Source: a virus
DNA: 50,946 nt
Reading direction: 5' to 3' (one strand)
Virus record (IMG/VR): IMGVR_UViG_3300005265_000006
Location: 1 to 50,946 of that record
Part shown: in pieces, positions 5,015 to 30,208 of the stretch
How positions within the stretch are numbered: position 1 is the first letter of the stretch
Layout of the letters: each line of letters opens with the position of its first letter
Program-made: the position numbers and the translations under genes
The notes under the pieces: generated by a model
The model's database searches: none
What the model was told of the DNA's origin: nothing
Seen by the model: only the letters and a program-made list of their open reading frames with translations

Positions 5015-6499
5015 TTAACATTTTCTCATTCTTTTTAATTGATTACTGAATTTCTCGAATAAATATTTTCTTTTTCTTGAACTTTCTATTTCTATACCTT
5101 TTCTCACCAGATTTCCTTCTGCCTTCCACACAACCCAATCCTTATCATCATTTAATAACATCTTCAATACATCTACAGGAGTATTTGGATTTTCTGCTAC
5201 ATCTGACCTAACCCATAAATCTTCATCTTTTGCCAATTGTCTTAAAATATCTACTGGAGTATCAGGATTCTGTGCTACTCTACCTCTAACACTTTCATCT
5301 TCATCTTTCGCTAATTCTTCTAATACATCAATTGGTACATTAGGATTTTCTACCACTGCAGCTCTAACATGCCAATCTTCATCCTTTGATAATTCTCTTA
5401 AAACATCTACTGGAGTATTAGGATTTTCTGCTACACGCTCTCTGATCAATCTACTTTCATCTTTTGCTAATTCTCTTAAAATATCCTCTCCTACATTTTT
5501 ATTTTTTAATAATTCTGATCTCACTTCAGTTTCTTCATCCTTTACTAATAATTTTAATACATCAGATGGAGTATTTTTATTATTTGCTACACCCCATCTA
5601 ACTATATCTTCTTCATCTCTTGTTAATTCTTCTAATACATCTACTGGAGTATTTGAATTTTGTGCTACTTCCTTTCTAACCTTAGGATCTTCATCCTTTG
5701 ATAATTCTCTTAAAACATCTACTGGAGTATTAGGATTTTCTGCTACTCCCGCTCTAACCTTAGGATTTATATCTTTTGCTAATTCTTCTAATATATCTAC
5801 TGGAGTTCTTTCATCAGATGCTACATTCTCTCTAACTATATCACTTTCATCTTTTGCTAATTCTCTTATAAAATACTCAGGACAGTTTGGATTATTTACT
5901 ACATCCTTTCTAACTATATCTTCTTCATCTCTTGTTAATTCTTCTAATACATCAATTGGTGTATTAGGATTTTCTGCTACTTTTGCTCTAACAAAATCAT
6001 TTTCATCTTTTGCTAATTCTCTTAAAATACTAACAGGAGTTCTTGGATCTTCCGCTATTCTTGCCCTATCTACCCAATCACCACTTTCTATCCGTCGTCT
6101 TAAATAAACCTCTTCATCTTCTTCTCCTATCTCCCCCACTTTCTCTTTTATCCAATCTAATAACTCTCCTAATACATCATCTACACCAGAAGTATCACCA
6201 TAATCGAGAAACATATTAAAAGCATCTGAAGTTTCTACCCATAATGTTGGGAAATCTTCATGATCTAATGGAAACTTATCTTCTGGTATCTTATCGATGG
6301 TCCATAAAATTTCTTTTATCATAGGTTCTGTATAATTAGCAAGATCTTCATAACAATAAGCTTCCCCGCAATCATTATCATATATCTCAACTGCCTTCCA
6401 ACCATATGTCTCATCTAAATAATCCTTAACCCATTGTTTGAAATCCTCCTTCGAAGAAAACATATCTTCTTCGAAAAGATATGATTTTTTTCTGAACAT
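5015..6499 (-). CDS. leucine-rich-repeat-variant (LRV) repeat protein, 494 aa
   Basis: An N-terminal domain of about 148 residues is followed by twelve consecutive 26-residue repeats of the form A-x-NPNTPVDVL-x-EL-x-KDED-x-x-VR-x-x-V (residues about 149-460), then a basic tail. The pattern (NPNTP turn, VDVL helix, KDED-xx-VR helix) matches the leucine-rich repeat variant (LRV) alpha-solenoid fold, normally a protein-binding scaffold. The typical N-terminal Fe-S cluster cysteines of some LRV proteins are not seen. I chose ATG 6499 because GGAGGTGTAAT precedes it. A TTG at 6514 in the same frame lies within the upstream leader. N- and C-termini share a similar (K/R)KxYLFE element. The role is unknown; a partner-binding or decoy function is inference. 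Confidence 0.85.
   Translation of the reverse strand: MFRKKSYLFEEDMFSSKEDFKQWVKDYLDETYGWKAVEIYDNDCGEAYCYEDLANYTEPMIKEILWTIDKIPEDKFPLDHEDFPTLWVETSDAFNMFLDYGDTSGVDDVLGELLDWIKEKVGEIGEEDEEVYLRRRIESGDWVDRARIAEDPRTPVSILRELAKDENDFVRAKVAENPNTPIDVLEELTRDEEDIVRKDVVNNPNCPEYFIRELAKDESDIVRENVASDERTPVDILEELAKDINPKVRAGVAENPNTPVDVLRELSKDEDPKVRKEVAQNSNTPVDVLEELTRDEEDIVRWGVANNKNTPSDVLKLLVKDEETEVRSELLKNKNVGEDILRELAKDESRLIRERVAENPNTPVDVLRELSKDEDWHVRAAVVENPNVPIDVLEELAKDEDESVRGRVAQNPDTPVDILRQLAKDEDLWVRSDVAENPNTPVDVLKMLLNDDKDWVVWKAEGNLVRKGIEIESSRKRKYLFEKFSNQLKRMRKC
5120..6055 (-). repeat. twelve in-frame 78-bp tandem repeats (LRV coding)
   Basis: The coding DNA repeats with a 78-base period (for example the ACTGGA/ACAGGA copies at 5253 and 5175). 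Copies have drifted, but several keep near-identical blocks, for example the NPNTPVDVLRELSKDED copies. The strong similarity between non-adjacent copies suggests duplication or recombination between units. This is a protein-coding repeat and not a CRISPR array. Confidence 0.85.
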
Positions 6500-6510
6500 A
6501 TTACACCTCC

Positions 6511-7440
6511 TCAACTCTTATACTCTTCATACCATTCCTTCATTTTCTTTTTGTCTATATAATCAAACAACTTAACTATTCCAGCAGTATCAAAATTCAA
6601 CTTTCTCCCAAAACTATCATACATAAACATTGTATCAGAATTTTCATATACATCTACTTCTATATTTTTTGAAAATGGAATACCTGCTTTTCTTATAAAC
6701 AAATTATATGTAACTCTCTTATTATCTAAATCAACCTCACTTACAGAACCAGATTCAATTAAAACACCAACTCTTCTTAAAGCAGTTAACAACCTTGAAC
6801 TGGTCTTTTGTATTAATTCATCATAACCTCTTTTTAACATTGTATGAGCTTTCAGTTTTCTTGCTACAAATGCTTCAGGAGTCATTTCTTTTGGAATCAT
6901 ATCTTTATTGATATACTTCTTCAATAAATTTATAATAAGTTCATTATAATACTCAACTTTTTCAATATCACCACTTCTTTCTGCCATATTTCTATCCCTA
7001 ATTAAAGATGTGTACATCTGTAAATCCATTGGTGTTAACTCTTTCAATAAATCTCTTTCAAACTCATCTTTCTCTATTGGTCTTTCTTCCATATAACCAG
7101 GAATATCAGTTTCAAATAAATCTTCATCATAATCTTCTTCTGGATATCCTTTGATATCTTCTAACTGCTCTGGTTTGTTTGGAGATAATTCTTGTGGCTT
7201 ACCTTCCTCTGGATAACCTGTGTAAGGTTCTTCTTGTGCAAACTTTTTTGTTGATATTTTTATATCAGTCATTGAAAATAATTCATCATTCAATCTTTTA
7301 CTCAAATAAAGTAAATCAACTATAACAGAATTAACCTTTCCTTTCTCTAAATATTCTCTATACATATCAATCTTACTGTCAATATCTTCAATCAAAGATT
7401 TCAATTTCTCATATTTTTCTGAATATGCTTTTGTTTTCAT
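6511..7440 (-). CDS. hypothetical protein, 309 aa
   Basis: I do not recognise this protein. Residues 1-65 are helical, followed by a Pro/Glu/Gly/Tyr-rich acidic linker (about 75-130) with two GYPEE segments and SPNKPE. A helical middle and a mixed beta C-terminus (about 215-309) follow. The start has AAGGAGGATAA directly upstream. Its ATG overlaps the stop of the HAD gene (ATGA, 7437-7440), so the two are translationally coupled. The linker similarity to the 464-residue protein suggests they may be related in role, possibly virion proteins (inference). Confidence 0.7.
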   Translation of the reverse strand: MKTKAYSEKYEKLKSLIEDIDSKIDMYREYLEKGKVNSVIVDLLYLSKRLNDELFSMTDIKISTKKFAQEEPYTGYPEEGKPQELSPNKPEQLEDIKGYPEEDYDEDLFETDIPGYMEERPIEKDEFERDLLKELTPMDLQMYTSLIRDRNMAERSGDIEKVEYYNELIINLLKKYINKDMIPKEMTPEAFVARKLKAHTMLKRGYDELIQKTSSRLLTALRRVGVLIESGSVSEVDLDNKRVTYNLFIRKAGIPFSKNIEVDVYENSDTMFMYDSFGRKLNFDTAGIVKLFDYIDKKKMKEWYEEYKS

Positions 7441-7949
7441 TTATCCTCCTTATACTTTAATTGTTCTACAGTTATTGATTTTACAATTGGTTTTACATAA
7501 TCTACAATATCTTTCCTATCATCTACATAAAACAAAATATCATAATTTTCCTTTAATGATTGTAAAACCATATACTTATACTTTTTTACATCCAACATAT
7601 CAGGAAAAGGATTATCAAAATAATCAATCACATTCATACCCAACTCCTTCAAAAACTTAATCTCTCTCTCTGTACATTTATCAAAATCAGATTCTCTTCC
7701 TGTCAGAATAACAACATCTAATCTATACGAAATAATTTTATCAATATTACCAAACAAAAACATATCTAAATAACACAATGAAATATCAAAATACAAATTA
7801 TAGAACTCTTTTATTTCATCTTCTGTAAAATATTCATGTATATCTTCATCAAAATAGGCCTCTTTACCCATCATTTTCAATACATTATATCTTCTTTTCC
7901 CCTCATCTATTAAAACACCATCCATATCAGAAACTATTATCTTTTTCAT
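7437..7949 (-). CDS. HAD-superfamily phosphatase, 170 aa
   Basis: The haloacid-dehalogenase core is clear. Motif I is SDMDGVL at residues 7-13 (nucleophile Asp and acid/base Asp), motif II is ILTGR near residue 81, a Lys-rich motif III candidate (KKYKYM) lies near 122, and motif IV is YVDDRKD near 140. The small size resembles 5'-nucleotidase or polynucleotide 3'-phosphatase HAD domains. Substrates could be a nucleotide, a DNA 3'-phosphate or a small metabolite; the sequence alone does not decide. It follows queE by 47 bases, so a pathway link is possible but not shown. AAAGGAGTTAT precedes the start. Confidence 0.8.
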   Translation of the reverse strand: MKKIIVSDMDGVLIDEGKRRYNVLKMMGKEAYFDEDIHEYFTEDEIKEFYNLYFDISLCYLDMFLFGNIDKIISYRLDVVILTGRESDFDKCTEREIKFLKELGMNVIDYFDNPFPDMLDVKKYKYMVLQSLKENYDILFYVDDRKDIVDYVKPIVKSITVEQLKYKEDK

Positions 7950-7996
7950 ATAACTCCTTTCATCTTAATCCTTTTTGTTATATAAAATCTTTATTT

Positions 7997-8695
7997 TTAA
8001 ACACCTCTTTTGTTACCATAAATAAACTTATGAACCTGTGGTATAACTCGAAAATCAGTAATCTTACTCATTATACTTTCAACTATCTTTGAATAATCTC
8101 TATCTTCATACCAAACAGGTTGTATTACAATCTTGTCTTTAGGAACATCAAACAACTCCATAAAGATTTTTAACTGATTCATATCTTTATCAAACCTGGT
8201 ATCATCAACTAAAAACTTAATTTGATATTTCATAGTAACATTTAATAACTTCTTCAAATTATCTATATATCCTTTGACTTCACTCAAATAATCCATTTTA
8301 GGTGATATACTCAGAAACAAATTACCTCTCAATATCTCCAGATTTTTATGATACAAACTACCATTAGTCTCTATATTTATTTCATCAAAGATACCCATTA
8401 AACTACAGAATAATCTGTCCATATACTGAACAAATAATAAAGGTTCACCACCAGTCAAACTAATCCTTCTATAATCAGAATATTTAGATAATTCCTGATA
8501 TAAACTTCCATCATCATATAAAGTAGGTTTAACAGAACCATCCCAAGCATATTTAGTATCACAAAATGGACAATCTAAATTACATCCTGAAAATCTAACA
8601 AAAACCTGAGGAGTTCCTACAAACAACCCCTCACCTTCAAATCCTGGATAAATTTCAATAATAGGATACACTGTCTTTATTTCTTTATATGACAT
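7997..8695 (-). CDS. queE: 7-carboxy-7-deazaguanine synthase QueE
   Basis: This radical SAM enzyme converts 6-carboxy-tetrahydropterin to 7-carboxy-7-deazaguanine (CDG), the third step of preQ0 synthesis. The [4Fe-4S] motif CNLDCPFC has C38, C42 and C45, preceded by the family's N-terminal GFEGEGLFVGTPQVFVR region. TGGEP at 81-85 binds the SAM amino group. Length (232 aa) is normal for QueE. A GAAGGAGGTGTGAT site supports the start. It lies beside the primase gene and about 17 kb from the dpdA cluster, so the pathway genes are scattered through the replication operon. Assignment is firm. Confidence 0.93.
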   Translation of the reverse strand: MSYKEIKTVYPIIEIYPGFEGEGLFVGTPQVFVRFSGCNLDCPFCDTKYAWDGSVKPTLYDDGSLYQELSKYSDYRRISLTGGEPLLFVQYMDRLFCSLMGIFDEINIETNGSLYHKNLEILRGNLFLSISPKMDYLSEVKGYIDNLKKLLNVTMKYQIKFLVDDTRFDKDMNQLKIFMELFDVPKDKIVIQPVWYEDRDYSKIVESIMSKITDFRVIPQVHKFIYGNKRGV

Positions 8696-10147: not shown

Positions 10148-11458
10148 CTAAATATTATTGTATCTCAATATATCCATATAACCAGTATTAAATAATATAT
10201 CTTTCTGTTCCTTCAATCTTATACCAATATCATTCCTATAATATCCATCAATAGTATACACACCATCATCTTTCAAATAATCATAAACTATTCTATACAC
10301 CTCATCAAACTTTTCATGTTTTCCACTAACTGTAAGAATTCTTCCATTATTAGGAACAACTCTTAACTTTCCATCATCATCTTTATATACTCCATAGAAA
10401 TCAATATTTATATCCTCATTTTCTTTTACATAAACAACTTTGTTTGCACCTCTCTGATTAACTACATCCATAAAAGGATAACCACAAGCATTATAACCAA
10501 CAGTTATTCCAATATCATCATAAACATCTATATCTTCATCAATACCATAAGTTACATTATACACTAATTTACTGAATTCATCTTTTATCAACAATAAATA
10601 AAGACTCATGGTTGGTGCACCAAATCTTGGAGTAGGTTCTAATATATAAGTATTTCCTTCTTCATCAACAATACCATTAAAATCAAAAACACCATGAAAT
10701 CTTGTTCTTGATAACTCATGTTCTATCTTTCTCAAAGTTTCATCAAACAATTTACTTTCATACTCGAAATATCCAGTTGTTCCCATTTCACCTGTAAATG
10801 GTCCTATGTTACCTGGAAACATCCTTTTCTCTTCATAATTTATTAGATAAGGTTTCAAAAACTTTGTCCCATTATAAAACCCTGTTATAGCAATTTCAAC
10901 ACCGTCAATCTTTTTCTGTAATATAAGACTTGCGTCAGGCACTTTCTGTAAAAGATATTCTAAATGGTCTCTGCAATCCTCCTCACTAAAAGGAACATAA
11001 GTTTTTATACTCGAATCTCCAATCTTATCAACCTTTATCACATAAATACCTTTATTCTCACCAAAAAAATCTATTGCCTCTTGTACAGAATCAAAATGAT
11101 ATGTCTCTGGATAATTCAAAAAAGGATAAATCTTTCTGATATATTCTCTGTCATTCTCCATCTCCTCTACAAAATAAGGTGCACCAAATACCTTATAACC
11201 TCTACTAACCAAAGTATCAATCTCTTTACCAAAATTTATATCAGTATAAAGAATTATATCAGCCCAATCATAATATCTCAATACATCATGTACTCTTTCT
11301 ATACCATACTCCTCATAAATACCTTTACCAAATAGTTCTTTTTCTACTGATGGATGAGCCTCACCCTCTGGTATAAATACTTTCACCTCATTCTGTTCCT
11401 GACCTAATCTCATTATAACTGGCATAGCAAAACATGTATCTATAACAAGTATTCTCAT
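10148..11458 (-). CDS. PurD-like ATP-grasp ligase with altered metal site
   Basis: This ATP-grasp protein is related to phosphoribosylamine-glycine ligase (PurD). Similar regions are IDGVEIAITGFYNG (about 184-197), PGNIGPFTGEMG (215-226; PurD has an NTGGMG-type motif) and FHGVFDFNG...ILEPTPRFGAPT (254-283). PurD normally has E-x-N-x-R-F-G-D here, whereas this protein has E274-P-T276-P-R278-F-G-A, so the metal-binding Asn and the following Asp are replaced. ATP-dependent carboxylate-amine ligation is expected, but the substrate may not be glycine. It starts with a strong GAAGGAGGTGCTAT site and overlaps the nuclease gene by ATGA. No other purine genes are visible nearby. Confidence 0.75.
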   Translation of the reverse strand: MRILVIDTCFAMPVIMRLGQEQNEVKVFIPEGEAHPSVEKELFGKGIYEEYGIERVHDVLRYYDWADIILYTDINFGKEIDTLVSRGYKVFGAPYFVEEMENDREYIRKIYPFLNYPETYHFDSVQEAIDFFGENKGIYVIKVDKIGDSSIKTYVPFSEEDCRDHLEYLLQKVPDASLILQKKIDGVEIAITGFYNGTKFLKPYLINYEEKRMFPGNIGPFTGEMGTTGYFEYESKLFDETLRKIEHELSRTRFHGVFDFNGIVDEEGNTYILEPTPRFGAPTMSLYLLLIKDEFSKLVYNVTYGIDEDIDVYDDIGITVGYNACGYPFMDVVNQRGANKVVYVKENEDINIDFYGVYKDDDGKLRVVPNNGRILTVSGKHEKFDEVYRIVYDYLKDDGVYTIDGYYRNDIGIRLKEQKDILFNTGYMDILRYNNI

Positions 11459-15683: not shown

Positions 15684-16226
15684 TCACCCCTTATACCACA
15701 ATCCATTCTCTTTATTTTCAGCATATGATTTCTCCGTCTCATGAACTCTTACTATAATCTTAACAGGCATATGTATATCCAGTAAATCTATTACCGAACT
15801 GGTAAGCAACAAAGATAAATTCTCGCATGTTGGTTCCATTCTTGTTATAACTATATCACTTGTTAGAAAAACTCGGCCATCTACATCATAAACTTTACCT
15901 TTATCTTTTGGTTGTAGAAAAGACATAGATTTCTTATTTACATCCTTTGGATAGAACAAATCATCTAAATCACTCGGAAACAAAGTACCTCCTTGTTCAT
16001 ACTCAATCCTATCAATCTGATACATTGAAATCAAGGTCTTATGGTCTAACTCATCTATAAGATTCTTAATCACATTAAAATCTACTACTACATCATCTTT
16101 GCCCATATCTTCAACTTCTATCTCTACAATCACCTTCCAATTATGTCCGTGTAACCTATGACATTTTCCAAACCTTTCTGGTAATATATGGGCAGCACTG
16201 AAAACTCTTTCAGTACCAATTTTCAT
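15684..16226 (-). CDS. queD: 6-carboxy-tetrahydropterin synthase QueD
   Basis: Converts 7,8-dihydroneopterin triphosphate to 6-carboxy-tetrahydropterin, the second step of preQ0 synthesis. Zinc and catalytic residues are in place: H13, C22, H26 and H28 in KCHRLHGHNW, D61-H62 of LDHKTL, EPTCEN at 131-136 and E163 of VHETEK. At 180 aa it is longer than the usual 120 or so. The extra residues form an insert of about 45-50 aa between LDHKTL and EPTCEN. The start has AAAAGGAGGTAGAAA upstream. It is flanked by an unknown gene and the small basic gene, away from folE. Confidence 0.92.
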   Translation of the reverse strand: MKIGTERVFSAAHILPERFGKCHRLHGHNWKVIVEIEVEDMGKDDVVVDFNVIKNLIDELDHKTLISMYQIDRIEYEQGGTLFPSDLDDLFYPKDVNKKSMSFLQPKDKGKVYDVDGRVFLTSDIVITRMEPTCENLSLLLTSSVIDLLDIHMPVKIIVRVHETEKSYAENKENGLWYKG

Positions 16227-22905: not shown

Positions 22906-25158
22906 CTAAAACAACTTATTTCTCGTAAGACCACTCTCAAATTCTGAGTAATCAAAACCTAAAGCTTCAACTATATACTTTATCTTCATCTTTGTTCTCT
23001 CTATTATTCTATCATAATCTATTTCAAAACCATCTGGTATTTTATCTACAAAAGCAATAACATCAGTATCTGGATAACCACGAGGAACTTTCTTTATAAA
23101 GATATATCTAATTCTATCACCTCTGGTTATATTCATACTCAAATATTTATTACTATATTTTATTGCTCGAACATGTATTGGATTACCCTTGTAACTTTCA
23201 ATATCTTTATTTACTCCAACTGGAAACCCAATACTTTCTACATCTTGTTCCTTTATCGCATTAAAATATTCTTGCATGAATTCTCTAATATAATCTATAC
23301 TAACATCCTCTCTCAACAATTTTTCAAGAATCAAACTCTGTAATTTCTTTATGAATTCAGGATTATCAGATCTTCTAACTTCTAACCCAACAAATTCTAT
23401 CTCATCTACATCCTGTCCATTATCCCAAACTAATAAACCAGAATATCTTTTCTTGTTAAGAAAGATTATTCTCCTGTAAACTTTCTCAAATTTAATATTG
23501 AATATATGAGAGTCTACATTAAATTCTTTTTTCATAAAAGAATCAAAAGAACTATTTATCTTCTTCTTCAATTCATAACCTAACTCAATGCAATCATCAA
23601 GATTATCTAAACCTGACAAAACAAAAATGGAATCTGTATCAGAATAAATAACTTCATAACCCATATCTTCTACTAAAGAAATAACAAATCTAATAATAGA
23701 TCTGGCGGTATAAGTAACAGATGAAGCCAATCTCTTGTCAAAAAACCTTGAATTCTCAAAAGCAAAATATCCATACAATGAATTTATTAGCGCCTTCATT
23801 GCGAATTGTTGATTATACAAACTAACATATTCTGTACTACCATACTCATGTTTTTTCATTTCTTTCTTTAATCTATTTCTTTCGTTAAATAGATATTCTA
23901 TAACTTCTTTCAAAAAACTATCTCTATCCTTTCTAAATCTATATCTATCTATTTTTATACAATTACTACACTCTATTTCTTCACCAATAAAAGTTTCTGG
24001 TGATATATTCATGGAATACATAATTGATGGATAAAGAGAAGTCATATCTAATTCTACTACCCATTTACTAACTCCTTTCTTAGGTTCAAGAACAAATGCT
24101 CCTTTGAACTTCTTACCAGAAGAATCATCCAATTTCTTTCTATTAGGTAAAACAACTGATATCTGTTTAGCATAGTTCAACAAAAAATTATCAATCATCC
24201 TCGAATTCATCAATACCTGATCCCAAGTACTTTTTGTTTTTCTTCTTAGATTATCAAAAAATTGGGTTATAGAAATCTTTGTATCTAATTCTAACATAAT
24301 TTTAACATCTCTACGATTATATCTCAACATATCTTTCAGATCTTCAAAATCATCTATCTTATCTTTGAATTCATAATCAATTTTACCATAACCTAATTCA
24401 TATTTAGCAACATAATCTAACGCATAACTCTCTCTCATACCAGAACCAACAGTCAGGTATCTATATAACTTCAACATATCAAGAAAAGAACAACCCGCTA
24501 ATTCATACCAACCTTTATCTGATACAATACGTTCTAATGGTGAAATCTTTCTTATCAAACTATGTCCTATTCTATTAAATAAATAAACAAAATCATAGTT
24601 ATCTCCATTCCAAGAATATACTATATCAGGTAAATTTTTCCTCATAAATTTTACAAAATATCTATACATCCTTCTTTCATCATTAAACAAGAAAATTTGC
24701 CAGGACTTACTATCTATTACATCTTCATCAAGAAAATCAAGATAAACAAAACTAAAATACTTATCTAAAATATCATCATATATTCCTATTATGTTTATAG
24801 GATGATTCGCTTTATTCGGGTCTGCAAAACTACTTGAAACTATTTCTATATCTAAATACCATATTCTCAAATAAGTTTCTTCTATTTCATCTACTCTATC
24901 TATCAAAAATCTATTTCTATACAAAACATCTGATTCATAAGTTTCATCATACTTCTCTCTTTCTTCTCTAACTTCAGATGGATGACCAAGAACTATTTTC
25001 TTCAATCTTTTACCAGATAGAGAAACATATTTACCATTTTTAGTAGGAACAAAAAAATAAGGATAGAAATCATCAATTTTCTTAATTTCCAATTTATTTC
25101 CATCTCTCAAAAATAAATATACTATATGACCATCTGCATAAATATTAGCAATCTTCAA
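22906..25158 (-). CDS. 43: family B DNA polymerase
   Basis: Replicative polymerase of 750 aa (T4 gp43 is 898). The 3'-5' exonuclease has YLDIEIV (Exo I), YSWNGDNYDF (Exo II) and YNRRDVKIM (Exo III). Polymerase motifs are LDMTSLYPSIM (A), the NSLYGYFAF region (B) and YSDTDSIFV (C). The start appears to be TTG at 25158, with AGAGGTCTATT upstream, and it overlaps the dpdA stop as TTGA, so translation is coupled to the modification enzyme. Domain order is complete and the enzyme should be active. Confidence 0.95.
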   Translation of the reverse strand: MKIANIYADGHIVYLFLRDGNKLEIKKIDDFYPYFFVPTKNGKYVSLSGKRLKKIVLGHPSEVREEREKYDETYESDVLYRNRFLIDRVDEIEETYLRIWYLDIEIVSSSFADPNKANHPINIIGIYDDILDKYFSFVYLDFLDEDVIDSKSWQIFLFNDERRMYRYFVKFMRKNLPDIVYSWNGDNYDFVYLFNRIGHSLIRKISPLERIVSDKGWYELAGCSFLDMLKLYRYLTVGSGMRESYALDYVAKYELGYGKIDYEFKDKIDDFEDLKDMLRYNRRDVKIMLELDTKISITQFFDNLRRKTKSTWDQVLMNSRMIDNFLLNYAKQISVVLPNRKKLDDSSGKKFKGAFVLEPKKGVSKWVVELDMTSLYPSIMYSMNISPETFIGEEIECSNCIKIDRYRFRKDRDSFLKEVIEYLFNERNRLKKEMKKHEYGSTEYVSLYNQQFAMKALINSLYGYFAFENSRFFDKRLASSVTYTARSIIRFVISLVEDMGYEVIYSDTDSIFVLSGLDNLDDCIELGYELKKKINSSFDSFMKKEFNVDSHIFNIKFEKVYRRIIFLNKKRYSGLLVWDNGQDVDEIEFVGLEVRRSDNPEFIKKLQSLILEKLLREDVSIDYIREFMQEYFNAIKEQDVESIGFPVGVNKDIESYKGNPIHVRAIKYSNKYLSMNITRGDRIRYIFIKKVPRGYPDTDVIAFVDKIPDGFEIDYDRIIERTKMKIKYIVEALGFDYSEFESGLTRNKLF

Positions 25159-26288
25159 AATAGACCTCTCTTTTTCACCTCTGGACTGAAACTAAAATCA
25201 TTATTATCATAGATACTCAATAATCTAACAGAATCCTTTATATTCGTTCTAAATAACTCTATAAACTCCTCGTCTTCACAATTTCTTAGATAATCTATCA
25301 TGTCAAGTATTGTAGCAACATTACAAAGATATAGAAAAACATTCAAATCTGTTTCTTTCTTAAACTTTCTGTCCATATTCCTAATCATAAAATTCTTCAA
25401 CCTTGTATTATCATAAATCAAATTCTTGTTTTCCTCATATATCTTTTCAACTTTTATGTCCTTCACTTTAATACCTTTCAGATTTCTATCCACCAACAAA
25501 CTTCTACCATTCCAGAAAATAATAGTTCTCATAGATGAATATCTTATAGGAGTAGATGAATCAAAAGTAATATATACATCTTTGTAAAGAAACCTCTGAT
25601 AGTAAAGCAAAAACAATATTGCTCTAACTCCTGAAACTGCCAACAAATGTATTGATTTTATTTTCTTTTCTTCAATAAATTTAAGAAACTTTGTTAATCT
25701 AAACAAATCATTCGGTGGCTTTATACCAAGACCCCAAAACTTGAAATCGTATAAATCCATAATAGAATCATACCATTTATTCATAGTATCATAACTAACT
25801 CCATGTATTATTCCACCCAAAGAAAATTCACTATCATCTAAATCTTCTAACATCATTTTTGTCCATCTAATAGTTTTCTGTAAATGTTCATCAAAATTAT
25901 CAAAATCAAATTCTGATATCAATCCCTTATTCTTACCTTCTATTGGTCTATAAGGGGGAGAATCAAGTATGAAACCCATATTAGTTAACTTCGTTTGGTA
26001 TCTAACAAGCTTTCTTGGATTAATAAAAGCACCAAAAGAAAAGACCTGGAATCCACCAGAATCTGACAAAAATAAACCTCTTTGTTTGATATATTCAAAA
26101 CAATCTATTTGTTTCAACATGCTCTTATCAAACTCATAACCAGAAATAAGATAGTTAAAGTAGAACATAGTCTCTCTCCACTCCTCAAAATAACTTTTAT
26201 TCAACAGAGATCCAAAAATAACAGGAAGATAAATGAAATTATCTCTTTCTTCCCACTTCTTCCAAAAATCTCTCTTTATCTCTTTCAT
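25155..26288 (-). CDS. dpdA: DpdA-type DNA guanine transglycosylase
   Basis: A TGT-fold enzyme that swaps guanine for a 7-deazaguanine in DNA. Visible signatures are SDSGGFQVFSFG (75-86), LGGIIHGVSYD (157-167), FWGLGIKPP (184-192), HLLAVSG (214-220) and the presumed nucleophile in TFDSSTP (D243). The C-terminal CxCxxC zinc site of bacterial tRNA TGT is absent, as in DpdA proteins. The neighbours gat-queC, queC and folE support the DNA assignment over a tRNA one. The gene starts 50 bases inside the gat-queC gene, with AGGAGGTTAAGG upstream. It overlaps the polymerase start. Confidence 0.9.
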   Translation of the reverse strand: MKEIKRDFWKKWEERDNFIYLPVIFGSLLNKSYFEEWRETMFYFNYLISGYEFDKSMLKQIDCFEYIKQRGLFLSDSGGFQVFSFGAFINPRKLVRYQTKLTNMGFILDSPPYRPIEGKNKGLISEFDFDNFDEHLQKTIRWTKMMLEDLDDSEFSLGGIIHGVSYDTMNKWYDSIMDLYDFKFWGLGIKPPNDLFRLTKFLKFIEEKKIKSIHLLAVSGVRAILFLLYYQRFLYKDVYITFDSSTPIRYSSMRTIIFWNGRSLLVDRNLKGIKVKDIKVEKIYEENKNLIYDNTRLKNFMIRNMDRKFKKETDLNVFLYLCNVATILDMIDYLRNCEDEEFIELFRTNIKDSVRLLSIYDNNDFSFSPEVKKRGLF

Positions 26289-27792
26289 CTATCCTTAACC
26301 TCCTTACTAATGATTCAATATCTTCTTTTATTATATCTTTTTCCGTAAATCTAATATCCTCAACAAGTCCTTTAAACTCATAATCTGTTCTATCTTCGAT
26401 ACCAGATCTGATGAAAGCAACCTTCTTTAACCAACAAGCGCCACATTTTCCGCATTGTTTCTCACCTCCTCTATCACATGACCAAGCCAACTCATAAGGA
26501 ACACCAAGATAACTTCCTAATTTAACAACTTCTGGTTTCATCAAATTACCAAGAACCATCTTAACTTTAGGTCTACTCAAAGTTCCAAAATCACTAACAT
26601 AATTCATTGCTCTAAAAAACGAAACTGAATTATCAGGATATGCACCTTCTTCTTCTAATGTAAAACCATTATATATCTCTGAATAACCTTCTGCCTCCGC
26701 AAGGCCCATTAAGATAGATAACATAATCAAATTCCTTGCTGGTGTCCAACACACAGTAGATTTAAGACCTTCTCTATAAGCATCTGGTGGTTCCAGATTA
26801 CTATCTGTCAAAACAGAAGCACCAAAATCTTTGAAAAAATCTAAATCTATAAATTTAACTGGAACCTTCAAATCTTCTGCTATTAAACTAACTGCCTCTT
26901 TCTCTCTTTCTTGACTCTTCTGTCCTATATTAAAATGTACTAATAAAACATCTTTCTTTTCTATCTTCTTTGCAACATACGCCGCGGTTGTTGAATCAAC
27001 CCCACCAGATGCAAGAACTATAACCTTATTTTTATCTTTCTTTGGAAGATAAGAAATATAGTAAGGTTCAAATCTATATTTCTCAATATCTCCTTTCTCA
27101 GATATATTGACCTTATATATCGTAAACTGTTCAAGTTCTCCCCACCAAAAATCCTCCCAAACCATGATATTCATTTCTCCTAATAATCTATGTAATTCAT
27201 CAACATCCGATACTCCAAAATATCCTTTGCCACAAACATAACCATGAGCCAAAGGTTTAAAATCTCTAACAAGATACAAAACATTACTTGTTATATCATA
27301 TACTATATACGCACTACCACCAGACACCATACTTAAAACATGTTTGAAATCAAAATCATATTTTTCCAACAATTTCTGAGTTACCTCTGAATCCAAATTT
27401 GTTTTAAATATAATATCTGGAAAATACTCTTTCTTTAATTCTTCATCATTTGCTACAACCCCATTATGAACAAGAACACTCTTATCAGAAACTAATGGCT
27501 GAATATCTTTCTCATCTATACTTGCTACTTCTGTCATGGGCTGTGCTCTGTTATTCCATATAACAAGCTTATCTTTACAACCATTATATCTACTAAGAAT
27601 ATCCAGAACCGCATCTATATTAGAACTGAAAGATCCTCTCGTTTTATACAACTCTAATATATCACGATTCTCCGTATCAATCAAAACAAAACCAAAAGCA
27701 TCTTTACCTCTCCTTTCTGTACTTAACATCAACCGTGTTACAAATACACTATCAAGACTCTCTTTAGCCCAATAAAAACCTATTCCACACAT
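26239..27792 (-). CDS. gat-queC: Gat-QueC: class II amidotransferase fused to QueC (archaeosine-type synthase)
   Basis: A 517-aa fusion. Residues 1-230 are a class II (Ntn) glutamine amidotransferase with catalytic Cys2 (MCGIG after Met removal), NNRAQP near 81-86 and VHNGVVAN near 108-115. Residues 257-500 are QueC, with P-loop SGGVDST at about 262-268 and the zinc set CDRGGEKQCGKCGAC. In archaea and in phage 9g, Gat-QueC is linked to turning preQ0 into archaeosine. Starting at ATG 27792 puts Cys at position 2, and GGAGGTGTTT is upstream; a GTG two codons earlier is not credible. This predicts dG+ in the phage DNA. Confidence 0.92.
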   Translation of the reverse strand: MCGIGFYWAKESLDSVFVTRLMLSTERRGKDAFGFVLIDTENRDILELYKTRGSFSSNIDAVLDILSRYNGCKDKLVIWNNRAQPMTEVASIDEKDIQPLVSDKSVLVHNGVVANDEELKKEYFPDIIFKTNLDSEVTQKLLEKYDFDFKHVLSMVSGGSAYIVYDITSNVLYLVRDFKPLAHGYVCGKGYFGVSDVDELHRLLGEMNIMVWEDFWWGELEQFTIYKVNISEKGDIEKYRFEPYYISYLPKKDKNKVIVLASGGVDSTTAAYVAKKIEKKDVLLVHFNIGQKSQEREKEAVSLIAEDLKVPVKFIDLDFFKDFGASVLTDSNLEPPDAYREGLKSTVCWTPARNLIMLSILMGLAEAEGYSEIYNGFTLEEEGAYPDNSVSFFRAMNYVSDFGTLSRPKVKMVLGNLMKPEVVKLGSYLGVPYELAWSCDRGGEKQCGKCGACWLKKVAFIRSGIEDRTDYEFKGLVEDIRFTEKDIIKEDIESLVRRLRIDERDKERFLEEVGRKR

Positions 27793-27820: not shown

Positions 27821-28873
27821 TCAACCTCTATCCCCATTAACTCTTCTTACTACATCTAAATCAAATCTAAAATCACCCGTTTTCTCACTATAATCTAACA
27901 TCCAAATACACTCCCAAAAACAACCAGCACAAAACAACATTTCCTTGTATTTTCTATCTACAAATTCTTCCAACTTCTCTTTACTTCTCATTATATCAAA
28001 TATTGTAACTTTATAATCAACGAACTTTCTGTAAGCACAAACTCTCATACTACCATCAGAATCTATAGAAATCGAACCCATGCCATATATCCACTTATGT
28101 CTTTGTTCTACTCCATACAAATATATATCTCTAAAATATTCTTTAGGTGGTTGTATGTATTTACCCAAAGGAGAATCTATCATCTCTATTATCTCTTCCA
28201 ACTGTTTCTTAAGAACAACATCTCTTTTTGGAACAAAAAATTTCGAATATTCACTAAAAAAATCAAAATAATCCAAACCCTCTGGTTTGTAATGTAAAAC
28301 ATTTACATCAACAAATATTTCTTCAAAAGATAGTTTTCTAACTATACTACTAAGCTGATCCACATTGTAGTTAGCAAGAGTAAAAGTAGCAAAAACATCT
28401 CTAACACCTCTATTTTTCGCTTCAACTAATGCTTGATAAACTCTCTTTGATTTTCGTAAAGTTTCAACTGGTATTTTTCCATTCTGAAAAAAAGTATCTA
28501 CTGCACCAGAAACAGAAACAGTTACATCAAAAACCTCATGCATAAAACTCTTATCGATAGTTTCTGGAAATGATGTATAAAAATTATACAAATAACCTCT
28601 ACTGTTCATAAAATCCAGTATATCTAACAACTTTTCACCCATACTTAAAGGTTCATTACCAAGTATCAAGAAAAAACTAATTTCAAATTCTTCTTTCAAA
28701 TAATCAAGAATATCAAACCAATCTTTAGCACTTAATTCACCTTCTGGTTTTGCATCATCTTTTCTTATAGCACAATAAGGACATTTGTAAGGACAATATC
28801 TGTTAAAATACAATACAGCCACTGGTTTTTTTGGATAAAGAATACCTTTCTTTTCACAAATTTCTCTAACCAT
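27821..28873 (-). CDS. radical SAM enzyme with SPASM-like C-terminus, in the dpdA cluster
   Basis: 350 aa. The radical SAM motif is C27-x3-C31-x2-C34 (CPYKCPYC), followed by LGNEP (71-75) in the place of the usual GGEP. The C-terminal quarter has C279 (RVCAYRKF) and C315-x2-C318-x3-C322 (CAGCFWEC), the spacing expected of an auxiliary Fe-S (SPASM or twitch) domain. It is separate from QueE, which is encoded elsewhere. It lies between gat-queC and queC with an AAGGAGGTGAGTT site and is clearly part of the modification cluster. No known preQ0 or archaeosine step needs it, except that archaeal RaSEA also is a radical SAM enzyme. Substrate unknown. Confidence 0.85.
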   Translation of the reverse strand: MVREICEKKGILYPKKPVAVLYFNRYCPYKCPYCAIRKDDAKPEGELSAKDWFDILDYLKEEFEISFFLILGNEPLSMGEKLLDILDFMNSRGYLYNFYTSFPETIDKSFMHEVFDVTVSVSGAVDTFFQNGKIPVETLRKSKRVYQALVEAKNRGVRDVFATFTLANYNVDQLSSIVRKLSFEEIFVDVNVLHYKPEGLDYFDFFSEYSKFFVPKRDVVLKKQLEEIIEMIDSPLGKYIQPPKEYFRDIYLYGVEQRHKWIYGMGSISIDSDGSMRVCAYRKFVDYKVTIFDIMRSKEKLEEFVDRKYKEMLFCAGCFWECIWMLDYSEKTGDFRFDLDVVRRVNGDRG

Positions 28874-28913
28874 AACTCACCTCCTTATCTAAAACAAATA
28901 CAATTAACACACA

Positions 28914-29618
28914 TCACAACTTACCATATTTTCTGAATACATACTCCATTTCTTCTGCTCTTCTACCATGATATCTACCTTCTTTCCATTTCTTAAAATA
29001 ACTATCAAACACTTCACTCTTTCTTATATCATTCTCAAATTCCAATAAATACTCAAGATTATTAACGGAATAAGCCGTAAATAATCTAAAACAAGCAGGA
29101 CAATTACCACACATTTTTTCCTCCCCTCTAAAACAAGAATAAATATAATTCAATGCATCTGGTTCAATTTTTTCTATATACTTTACTTCATCTCCCTTTG
29201 TCATATTTTTCGTAAAACTATCTATAACAGGATTCTCATACTTTAACTTCAAAACCTCTGTTAATCTTCTTCTAAACTCCTCATTGTTATCATATATATT
29301 ATCACCATCTACATTACCTATTATAACAGTCTTATCTAAAGTATGTTCCATAGCATACAAAATATAATAAGCATTACGAAAAGGAATCTCACCGTCCTCT
29401 TTAACAATAAGATAAAAATTAAAAACACTTTCAACTACTAACAACTCCATACTATCAAAAAATCTATCATGCAATTCAATAACTCTTCTCTCCTGTACGT
29501 CAGAATAATCTACTCTTTCGTTAAAAAATATCAACTTCTTTTCCTTAACATCTTTTCTTTCTCTTAACATCAAAGCATTGGTAAAAGAATCTAATCCACC
29601 AGAAAATAATACTATCAT
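28914..29618 (-). CDS. queC: QueC-like 7-cyano-7-deazaguanine (preQ0) synthase
   Basis: 234 aa, PP-loop ATPase. SGGLDS at 6-11 binds ATP, PFRNAYYILYAM near 79-90 replaces the usual RN-x-LFL helix, and the zinc cysteines are C162, C170, C173 and C176 (CFRGEEKMCGNCPAC). The usual YPDCR segment is changed to IYDNNEEF, a feature shared in part with the Gat-QueC here (YPDN). QueC converts CDG to preQ0 with ATP and ammonia. It overlaps folE by four bases. It could instead be a variant with a changed product; the family call is firm, the exact reaction less so. Confidence 0.82.
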   Translation of the reverse strand: MIVLFSGGLDSFTNALMLRERKDVKEKKLIFFNERVDYSDVQERRVIELHDRFFDSMELLVVESVFNFYLIVKEDGEIPFRNAYYILYAMEHTLDKTVIIGNVDGDNIYDNNEEFRRRLTEVLKLKYENPVIDSFTKNMTKGDEVKYIEKIEPDALNYIYSCFRGEEKMCGNCPACFRLFTAYSVNNLEYLLEFENDIRKSEVFDSYFKKWKEGRYHGRRAEEMEYVFRKYGKL

Positions 29619-30208
29619 TTTAGAACTCCTTTATCTATCAATTTAAGAAACTCCTGTTTAACACTATCTTCGTAGAATATACCTCTCAAAGAAGTAGTTC
29701 TAACAATACTGTTTTCTTGCTTCACTCCTCTCATTATCATACAAAAATGTTGCGCCTCTATATAAACTCCAACTCCTTTTGGTTTCAACTTTTCAAATAA
29801 GTAATCTGCAATTTGTTCTGTCATCAATTCTTGTATCTGCGGTCTTTTTGCAATCCAATCTACAATTCTTGATATCTTAGATAGACCAATCACTTCCTCC
29901 TCTGGAATATATCCAACCCAAGCAATATATCTTATAGGAACTAAATGATGTGCACAAAGACTATATCCATCTGTTCTAACTACTATCATACCATCATAAG
30001 AAACATTACTATCACTATTAGGAAACAAACGCAAATCAGGCTCTTCTGTAACTATACCTCTAAATAACTCTTTTTCAAACATCCTCACTACTCTTTCAGG
30101 AGTATCTTTCAACTGAGGATCATTTAAATCAATACCAAAAGATTCAAGAAATTCTCTTACCAACCCAACTCTATAACTAAATTTATCATCTTTTTTTAAT
30201 GTAAACAT
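29615..30208 (-). CDS. folE: GTP cyclohydrolase I FolE
   Basis: Makes 7,8-dihydroneopterin triphosphate from GTP, the entry step to 7-deazaguanines (and folate). The zinc ligands C85, H88 and C156 are present (CAHHLVP; AQHFCMIMRG), as are DTPERVVRMF (35-44) and IGLSKISRIVDW. Length 197 is slightly short of the E. coli enzyme (222) but complete. It heads the modification cluster, directly after the Cys-rich 435-residue gene, with AAAGGAGGAACAAACG before the ATG. Confidence 0.95.
   Translation of the reverse strand: MFTLKKDDKFSYRVGLVREFLESFGIDLNDPQLKDTPERVVRMFEKELFRGIVTEEPDLRLFPNSDSNVSYDGMIVVRTDGYSLCAHHLVPIRYIAWVGYIPEEEVIGLSKISRIVDWIAKRPQIQELMTEQIADYLFEKLKPKGVGVYIEAQHFCMIMRGVKQENSIVRTTSLRGIFYEDSVKQEFLKLIDKGVLK

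Follow-up and report, generated by a model that had tools for sequence, protein, structure and literature searches.

A radical SAM protein family with Twitch-type motifs accompanies dpdA in viral 7-deazaguanine clusters

A radical SAM protein (rSAM) is encoded in a virus record of 50,946 bases (the window, meaning the whole stretch of DNA that was analysed), and its membership in the viral 7-deazaguanine DNA-modification pathway is strongly supported. In 34 of the 36 non-redundant loci of its close family, dpdA/TGT is found on the same strand as the rSAM gene and no more than 6.1 kb away from it. This upholds the preliminary description of this DNA, which had placed the protein in a 7-deazaguanine cluster as an addition to the known preQ0 and dG+ route. 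Since dozens of environmental viruses keep rSAM beside the genes for guanine exchange, it probably makes an undescribed DNA base. The pathway class is known; rSAM as a near-constant member of it is undescribed as far as can be told, and no description of the family was found in the searchable literature, outside which lie most subscription papers, among them a directly relevant one from 2023. If rSAM is such a near-constant part of these clusters in uncultivated viruses, the chemical space of DNA bases would be wider. Bases of this kind conceal the viral genome from nucleases, those of restriction included, and the clusters provide a definite set of genes for transfer to E. coli and assay by mass spectrometry.

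Gene Content of the Window

The window carries T4-like replication genes, including a family B polymerase, a clamp loader, UvsX/RecA and a DnaB-like helicase. The rSAM gene, preceded by a ribosome-binding site (Table 1), lies in a minus-strand operon in the order folE, QueC-like, rSAM, gat-queC, dpdA/TGT, polB, and queE, queD and a HAD gene are found elsewhere in the window on the same strand. With FolE, QueD, QueE, Gat-QueC and DpdA all encoded, the gene set of a DpdA-type 7-deazaguanine pathway is complete; a separate QueE is indeed present, as the first reading had noted. Base-shuffled copies of the window contained no ORF of at least 350 aa in 10 trials.

Two of these assignments require qualification. 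The true start of Gat-QueC is most likely the one at 27792 (MCGI...). The DpdA assignment is a weak one, drawn from low TGT scores, gene position and the Asp and His residues conserved in the alignment, and a tblastn search of 50,697 phage records with this protein gave no match. The window also encodes a PurD-like ATP-grasp protein at 10148-11458 (TIGR00877 84 bits, below cut-off). Joint action of rSAM with this protein had been suggested earlier, and no evidence of a tie to the cluster was found.

Table 1. Features of the window that bear on the rSAM gene and the 7-deazaguanine pathway.
Feature	Coordinates	Strand	Support
rSAM protein (350 aa), subject of this work	27821..28873	minus	PF04055 42.9 bits (curated cut-off 29.5); ATG start
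Codons of C27xxxC31xxC34, SAM-cluster motif	28772..28795	minus	36/36 family members
Codon of C279, second Cys of Twitch motif (DGx4C)	28037..28039	minus	36/36 family members
Codons of C315-x2-C318-x3-C322	27908..27931	minus	C315, C318, W320 in 36/36; C322 in 4/36
Ribosome-binding site AAGGAGG ahead of the rSAM gene	28880..28886	minus	Sequence
QueC-like paralogue, YPDC gone, SGGLDS and Zn motif retained	28914..29618	minus	PF06508 44.1 bits
FolE, GTP cyclohydrolase I	29615..30208	minus	PF01227 185.5 bits
Gat-QueC, class II glutaminase and QueC domain	26239..27792	minus	PF06508 166 bits; GATase_7 47 bits
DpdA/TGT-like base-exchange enzyme (weak assignment), overlaps gat-queC	25155..26288	minus	TIGR00430 32 bits and PF01702 18.7 bits, neither reaching its cut-off
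QueE, CDG synthase	7997..8695	minus	TIGR03963 101 bits; phrog_2076 126 bits
QueD	15684..16226	minus	PF01242 78 bits; TIGR03367 66 bits
HAD phosphatase-like, adjoins QueE	7437..7949	minus	HAD_PNKP 27.5 bits; homologues in 24/36 family loci

Cysteine Motifs and Fold of rSAM

The protein belongs to the radical SAM superfamily: CX3CX2C occurs in every one of the 36 family members, the Pfam Radical_SAM model scores above its curated cut-off (Table 1), and the AlphaFold2 model compared by Foldseek shows a partial TIM barrel. Cysteines stand at positions 6, 27, 31, 34, 279, 315, 318 and 322, so that the set recorded in the preliminary description (C27/C31/C34, C279 and C315/C318/C322) is present as listed; its last group holds across the family for C315 and C318 but not for C322. 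Residues R25, C27, C31, C34, W52, F67, E74, D126, T165, G274, C279, C315, C318 and W320 are invariant in all 36 members.

The description as radical SAM/SPASM-like stood in its first half only. The SPASM model (PF13186) reaches 15.7 bits, under its cut-off of 21.5, and of the SPASM motif CX9-15GX4C...CX2CX5CX3C...C the window protein shows just GX4C and CX2C. The Twitch motif, which holds one auxiliary cluster, is C-x9-15-GX4C...CX2C, and this four-cysteine pattern is found in 34 of 36 members. As read from the alignment, the C-terminal part of the family is a one-cluster Twitch pattern rather than SPASM, with the family motif W[HN]C-x9-14-DGx4C...CxGCxW. The cysteine of W[HN]C is missing only from the window protein, which has Y263 in its place and carries C322, and from the protein of viral contig L010. 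The window rSAM is thus an atypical member, having lost the first Twitch cysteine that 34 of its relatives keep; at a guess, C322 may serve as a substitute ligand, or one iron site may be left open.

Models of known enzymes did not claim the protein. QueE models of NCBIfam and PHROG gave no match to rSAM at E<=1, and the separate QueE of the window does match them. Models of MoaA, NirJ, AhbC and PqqE gave at best 34.2 bits (NirJ1) against a cut-off of 650. RaSEA is the radical SAM enzyme of archaeosine synthesis; NCBIfam TIGR01210, which we take to be its model, had no match anywhere in the window at E<=1 and scored over its cut-off in three control genomes.

The AlphaFold2 model (pLDDT 87.5, pTM 0.89, with 45 family sequences in the alignment) found its best PDB matches in SuiB, BlsE, MoaA, viperin, DesII and PqqE, and SkfB was also matched. 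Several of these enzymes use nucleotides or nucleosides as substrates. With TM scores of 0.5-0.63 by query length and identity of at most 17%, the predicted fold amounts to a class assignment, not an identity, and points to no specific relative. Among viral models, the fourth-ranked match was A0A8S5QS09, a protein of 571 aa named 7-cyano-7-deazaguanine synthase (QueC), which is possibly an rSAM-QueC fusion by its modelled fold.

Distribution of the Family and Linkage to dpdA

As a single query, the window rSAM found zero relatives among viral contigs. Against the 50,697 phage records it gave PqqE-type matches only, in a record that otherwise carries bacterial-looking genes, and against plasmids only weak matches of the PqqE/NirJ/KamA type; the family to which it belongs is without a match in those phage records. 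The record CAKLQF020000010.1, labelled as an Acinetobacter phage, carries pqq, ent and ppk genes and has the look of bacterial DNA. A strict DNA pattern search for relatives found none, and a looser one (CPxxCPYC...GNEP) led to the first relative, in L010 (27% identity over 345 positions, E = 6e-32). The gene block of the window recurs there, reading QueC-like, SDR, rSAM, gat-queC, dpdA. Alignment-based scans then added, in turn, L093 and L095, 55 loci and 40 loci, which were selected each time by rSAM sequence and never by neighbouring genes. The window clade so obtained comprises 36 non-redundant members (<90% identity to each other), which are about 20-33% identical to the window rSAM. Bacterial and archaeal genomes scanned with a mixed alignment gave PqqE/NirJ-type proteins matched over the N-terminal half, and 414 genomes from two phyla gave distant matches only, with no QueC, FolE or TGT within the 3-4 kb examined.

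The two loci in which dpdA was not seen nearby are L198, whose contig ends 664 bases past the rSAM gene, and L205, which has no dpdA within 10 kb and in which a fused QueC-like-HAD gene adjoins rSAM. At most one close relative (L205) among 36 lacks the cluster. A QueC-fold gene is present in all 36 loci, FolE in 32, QueD and QueE in 28 each, HAD in 24 and SDR in 14. Polymerase genes of the cluster-bearing viruses are of family B (window, L093), A-like (L101, L187) or C-like (L145, L181), which argues that the block moves as a unit.

The tree separates the window clade from a clade of large phages with 100/100 support. In contrast to the window clade, this sister clade (40 distinct rSAM sequences, from L095, L105-L127, L129-L131, L133, L135-L144 and L146-L149) has a recognisable dpdA/TGT in 0/40 loci. 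The preliminary description had proposed co-occurrence with dpdA as a check, homologues mostly away from dpdA clusters speaking against its view, and such homologues turn out to be confined to this sister clade. In most of its loci QueD lies about 5 kb upstream, QueE is present in some, and on contigs longer than 125 kb QueC is found in 7/8, one of the seven being weak. A Fisher test of dpdA linkage (34/36 vs 0/41, the distinct large-phage count being 40) gives 8e-20, which is not a true probability because of common descent; many loci have replication genes in common, and the co-occurrence partly reflects this shared ancestry. Since the sister clade has QueD and QueC with no recognisable DpdA near, the ancestral job of rSAM may not be DNA-specific.

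Cluster Types and the QueC-Like Neighbour

The family loci fall into three cluster types. Type 1 (L177-L180, L184, L185 and L192) has a canonical QueC with [YF]PDC and usually an SDR, along with two further recurring genes that lie mostly between queC and dpdA and that no Pfam model matched. One encodes a PHADDE motif that recalls the PIG-L/LmbE deacetylases. The second is glycosyltransferase-like and matches (E = 1e-13) a protein of Xanthomonas phage PhiXhv-12 whose gene adjoins gat-queC and is annotated 'glycoside transferase'. L185 has an additional family 2 glycosyltransferase. It is possible, to judge from these gene products, that type 1 viruses carry a glycosylated 7-deazaguanine in their DNA. 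Type 2 (the window, L010, L093, L101-L103, L176, L181-L183, L186 and L191) combines Gat-QueC or a YPDN-type QueC with a QueC-like paralogue, often with SDR and HAD. In type 3 (17 loci) the QueC homologue in the vicinity of rSAM is QueC-like, HAD is present in most loci and class I methyltransferases in some. The rSAM tree tracks these types, with type 3 in one clade (100/99) and types 1 and 2 in another (100/99).

The protein was originally said to lie between gat-queC and queC. The position is right, but the 'queC' is a divergent paralogue. Most members of this QueC-like group keep SGGxDS, an [IV]PxRN-type motif and the zinc cysteines, and YPDC is gone. In E. coli QueC the YPDC tyrosine is required to form preQ0, and the QueC paralogues QatC and Cap9 couple CDG to an amine (PMC13329287). 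In view of the missing YPDC and of this chemistry, the QueC-like protein may be something other than an ordinary preQ0 synthase. Nor is it tied to rSAM, because at three phage loci (L098-L100) QueC-like and TGT occur in the absence of rSAM. The idea that it is an obligatory partner of rSAM was rejected, as seven clusters have canonical QueC instead.

The earlier suggestion of a link to the HAD protein gained ground from the recurrence of its gene and from its fusion to the QueC-like gene in six loci (L145, L188, L189, L202, L204 and L205). Fusions of FolE to a phosphoribosyltransferase (PRTase) number nine among the non-redundant loci and include L101, L102, L145, L176, L181, L190, L191 and L195; L093 has a separate PRTase gene at 7964-8395. 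HMM-based PRTase counts were set aside, being contaminated by the FolE fusions. As no more than an idea, the PRTase might salvage the guanine released by DpdA to GTP for FolE. L103 carries at 6401-8005 a QueE with a HINT and HNH insert, an intein. In-frame stops in queE, queC or TGT genes (TAG in L101 and L128; TGA in L132, L134, L178, L180 and L192) suggest stop-codon reassignment in these viruses.

Proposed Role and Alternatives

In the known phage route QueC with DpdA gives dPreQ0 and Gat-QueC with DpdA gives dG+ (PMC6884629), and rSAM is therefore surplus to both. Given its linkage to dpdA clusters, the simplest reading is that it modifies the base, or a precursor of it, at the 7-substituent. 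We favour, with moderate confidence and from gene content and motifs, a dedicated Twitch-type enzyme that would tailor the 7-substituent of 7-deazaguanine, or a group attached there, to yield a hypermodified base that DpdA puts in DNA. FolE, QueD and QueE would supply CDG, as in the established pathway, and QueC, Gat-QueC or the QueC-like protein would activate its carboxylate, as is established for QueC and presumed for the QueC-like protein. The motifs suggest that rSAM would use a 5'-deoxyadenosyl radical to abstract a hydrogen atom, with an auxiliary cluster that helps to transfer electrons or to bind the substrate. A group specific to each virus may be completed by SDR, HAD, methyltransferase or glycosyltransferase-like enzymes, either ahead of the exchange or following it; in the exchange DpdA would swap the base into DNA, as it is established to do. 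A more tentative extension is that rSAM functionalises 7-deazaguanine as the core of all three cluster types, providing a chemical handle from which undescribed bases are built by SDR, methyltransferase and glycosyltransferase-like partners.

Alternatively, rSAM might act on a small molecule (a sugar, an amino-alcohol or a phosphorylated precursor) whose product a QueC-like ligase joins to the 7-deazaguanine carboxylate, HAD and SDR serving the same branch. Sugar-like substrates are used by Twitch enzymes, BtrN among them; in several loci HAD and QueC-like genes stand side by side or are fused, and subsets of the loci carry SDR, methyltransferase or glycosyltransferase-like genes. The lack of YPDC in the QueC-like protein and the joining of CDG to an amine by QatC and Cap9 (PMC13329287) would fit as well. 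We nevertheless regard this as unlikely: the seven type 1 clusters have rSAM and a canonical QueC without QueC-like ligase or HAD, so that rSAM is independent of that ligase. Modification of another cluster protein such as DpdA or Gat-QueC, with rSAM as a maturase or activase, is less probable still. The peptide maturases SuiB and SkfB among the best fold matches speak for it, as do proteins modified by QueC paralogues. However, no precursor-peptide-like gene recurs among neighbourhood ORFs of at least 80 aa, and rSAM has one auxiliary-cluster motif, whereas most peptide maturases typically have a SPASM domain with two clusters.

Support for G+ formation or the preQ0 route, whether rSAM works as a lyase like RaSEA or takes the place of QueE or QueC, is very improbable. 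In its favour, RaSEA is also a radical SAM enzyme and the rSAM gene adjoins gat-queC. The RaSEA-like role named in the preliminary description lost ground with the absence of a TIGR01210 match and the presence of a separate QueE. Furthermore, 17/36 clusters form a subclade without Gat-QueC, so that many have no evident G+ step, and in E. coli deleted for queC, Gat-QueC and DpdA of phage 9g are enough to give dG+ (PMC6884629). We give equally little weight to the view that rSAM has some other task, RNA modification for instance, and merely hitch-hikes as cargo where viral replication genes are conserved. In several loci the cluster is indeed flanked by shared helicase, clamp and primase genes, and the sister clade exists without dpdA; against this, the cluster stays intact in viruses of three polymerase families, with rSAMs whose identity is often 30% or lower, and the rSAM subclade follows cluster type.

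Comparison With Known Systems

To our knowledge, all known phage 7-deazaguanine bases derive from the preQ0 route, setting aside four further 7-deazaguanine derivatives that the 2023 paper reportedly describes. Like the dG+ pathway of phage 9g, the window has FolE, QueD, QueE, Gat-QueC and DpdA, and folE, gat-queC and dpdA share the rSAM operon. Unlike phage 9g, whose locus shows none of the three, it adds rSAM, the divergent QueC-like enzyme and HAD.

Among radical SAM enzymes, the family resembles BtrN and other Twitch proteins in joining a radical SAM core to one auxiliary-cluster motif in 34 of its 36 members. The window protein differs in lacking the first cysteine and in having conserved W261 and W320, and matches no sequence family of this kind. 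Likeness to the GTP 3',8-cyclase MoaA lies in the predicted fold (TM 0.59 by query length), in three conserved auxiliary cysteines and in a guanine-type substrate, as proposed for rSAM, whereas the score with TIGR02668 is 20.3 bits against a cut-off of 325 and the cysteine spacing differs. The predicted fold also recalls BlsE (TM 0.63) and viperin (TM 0.54-0.58), both by query length, and both enzymes act on nucleosides or nucleotides; the identity is at most 17%, and viperin is not known to have an auxiliary-cluster domain of this kind. Finally, QatC and Cap9 of defence systems reuse the QueC scaffold beyond preQ0 synthesis (PMC13329287), as is proposed here for the QueC-like paralogue, which, unlike them, is encoded alongside DpdA and rSAM in a viral cluster for DNA modification.
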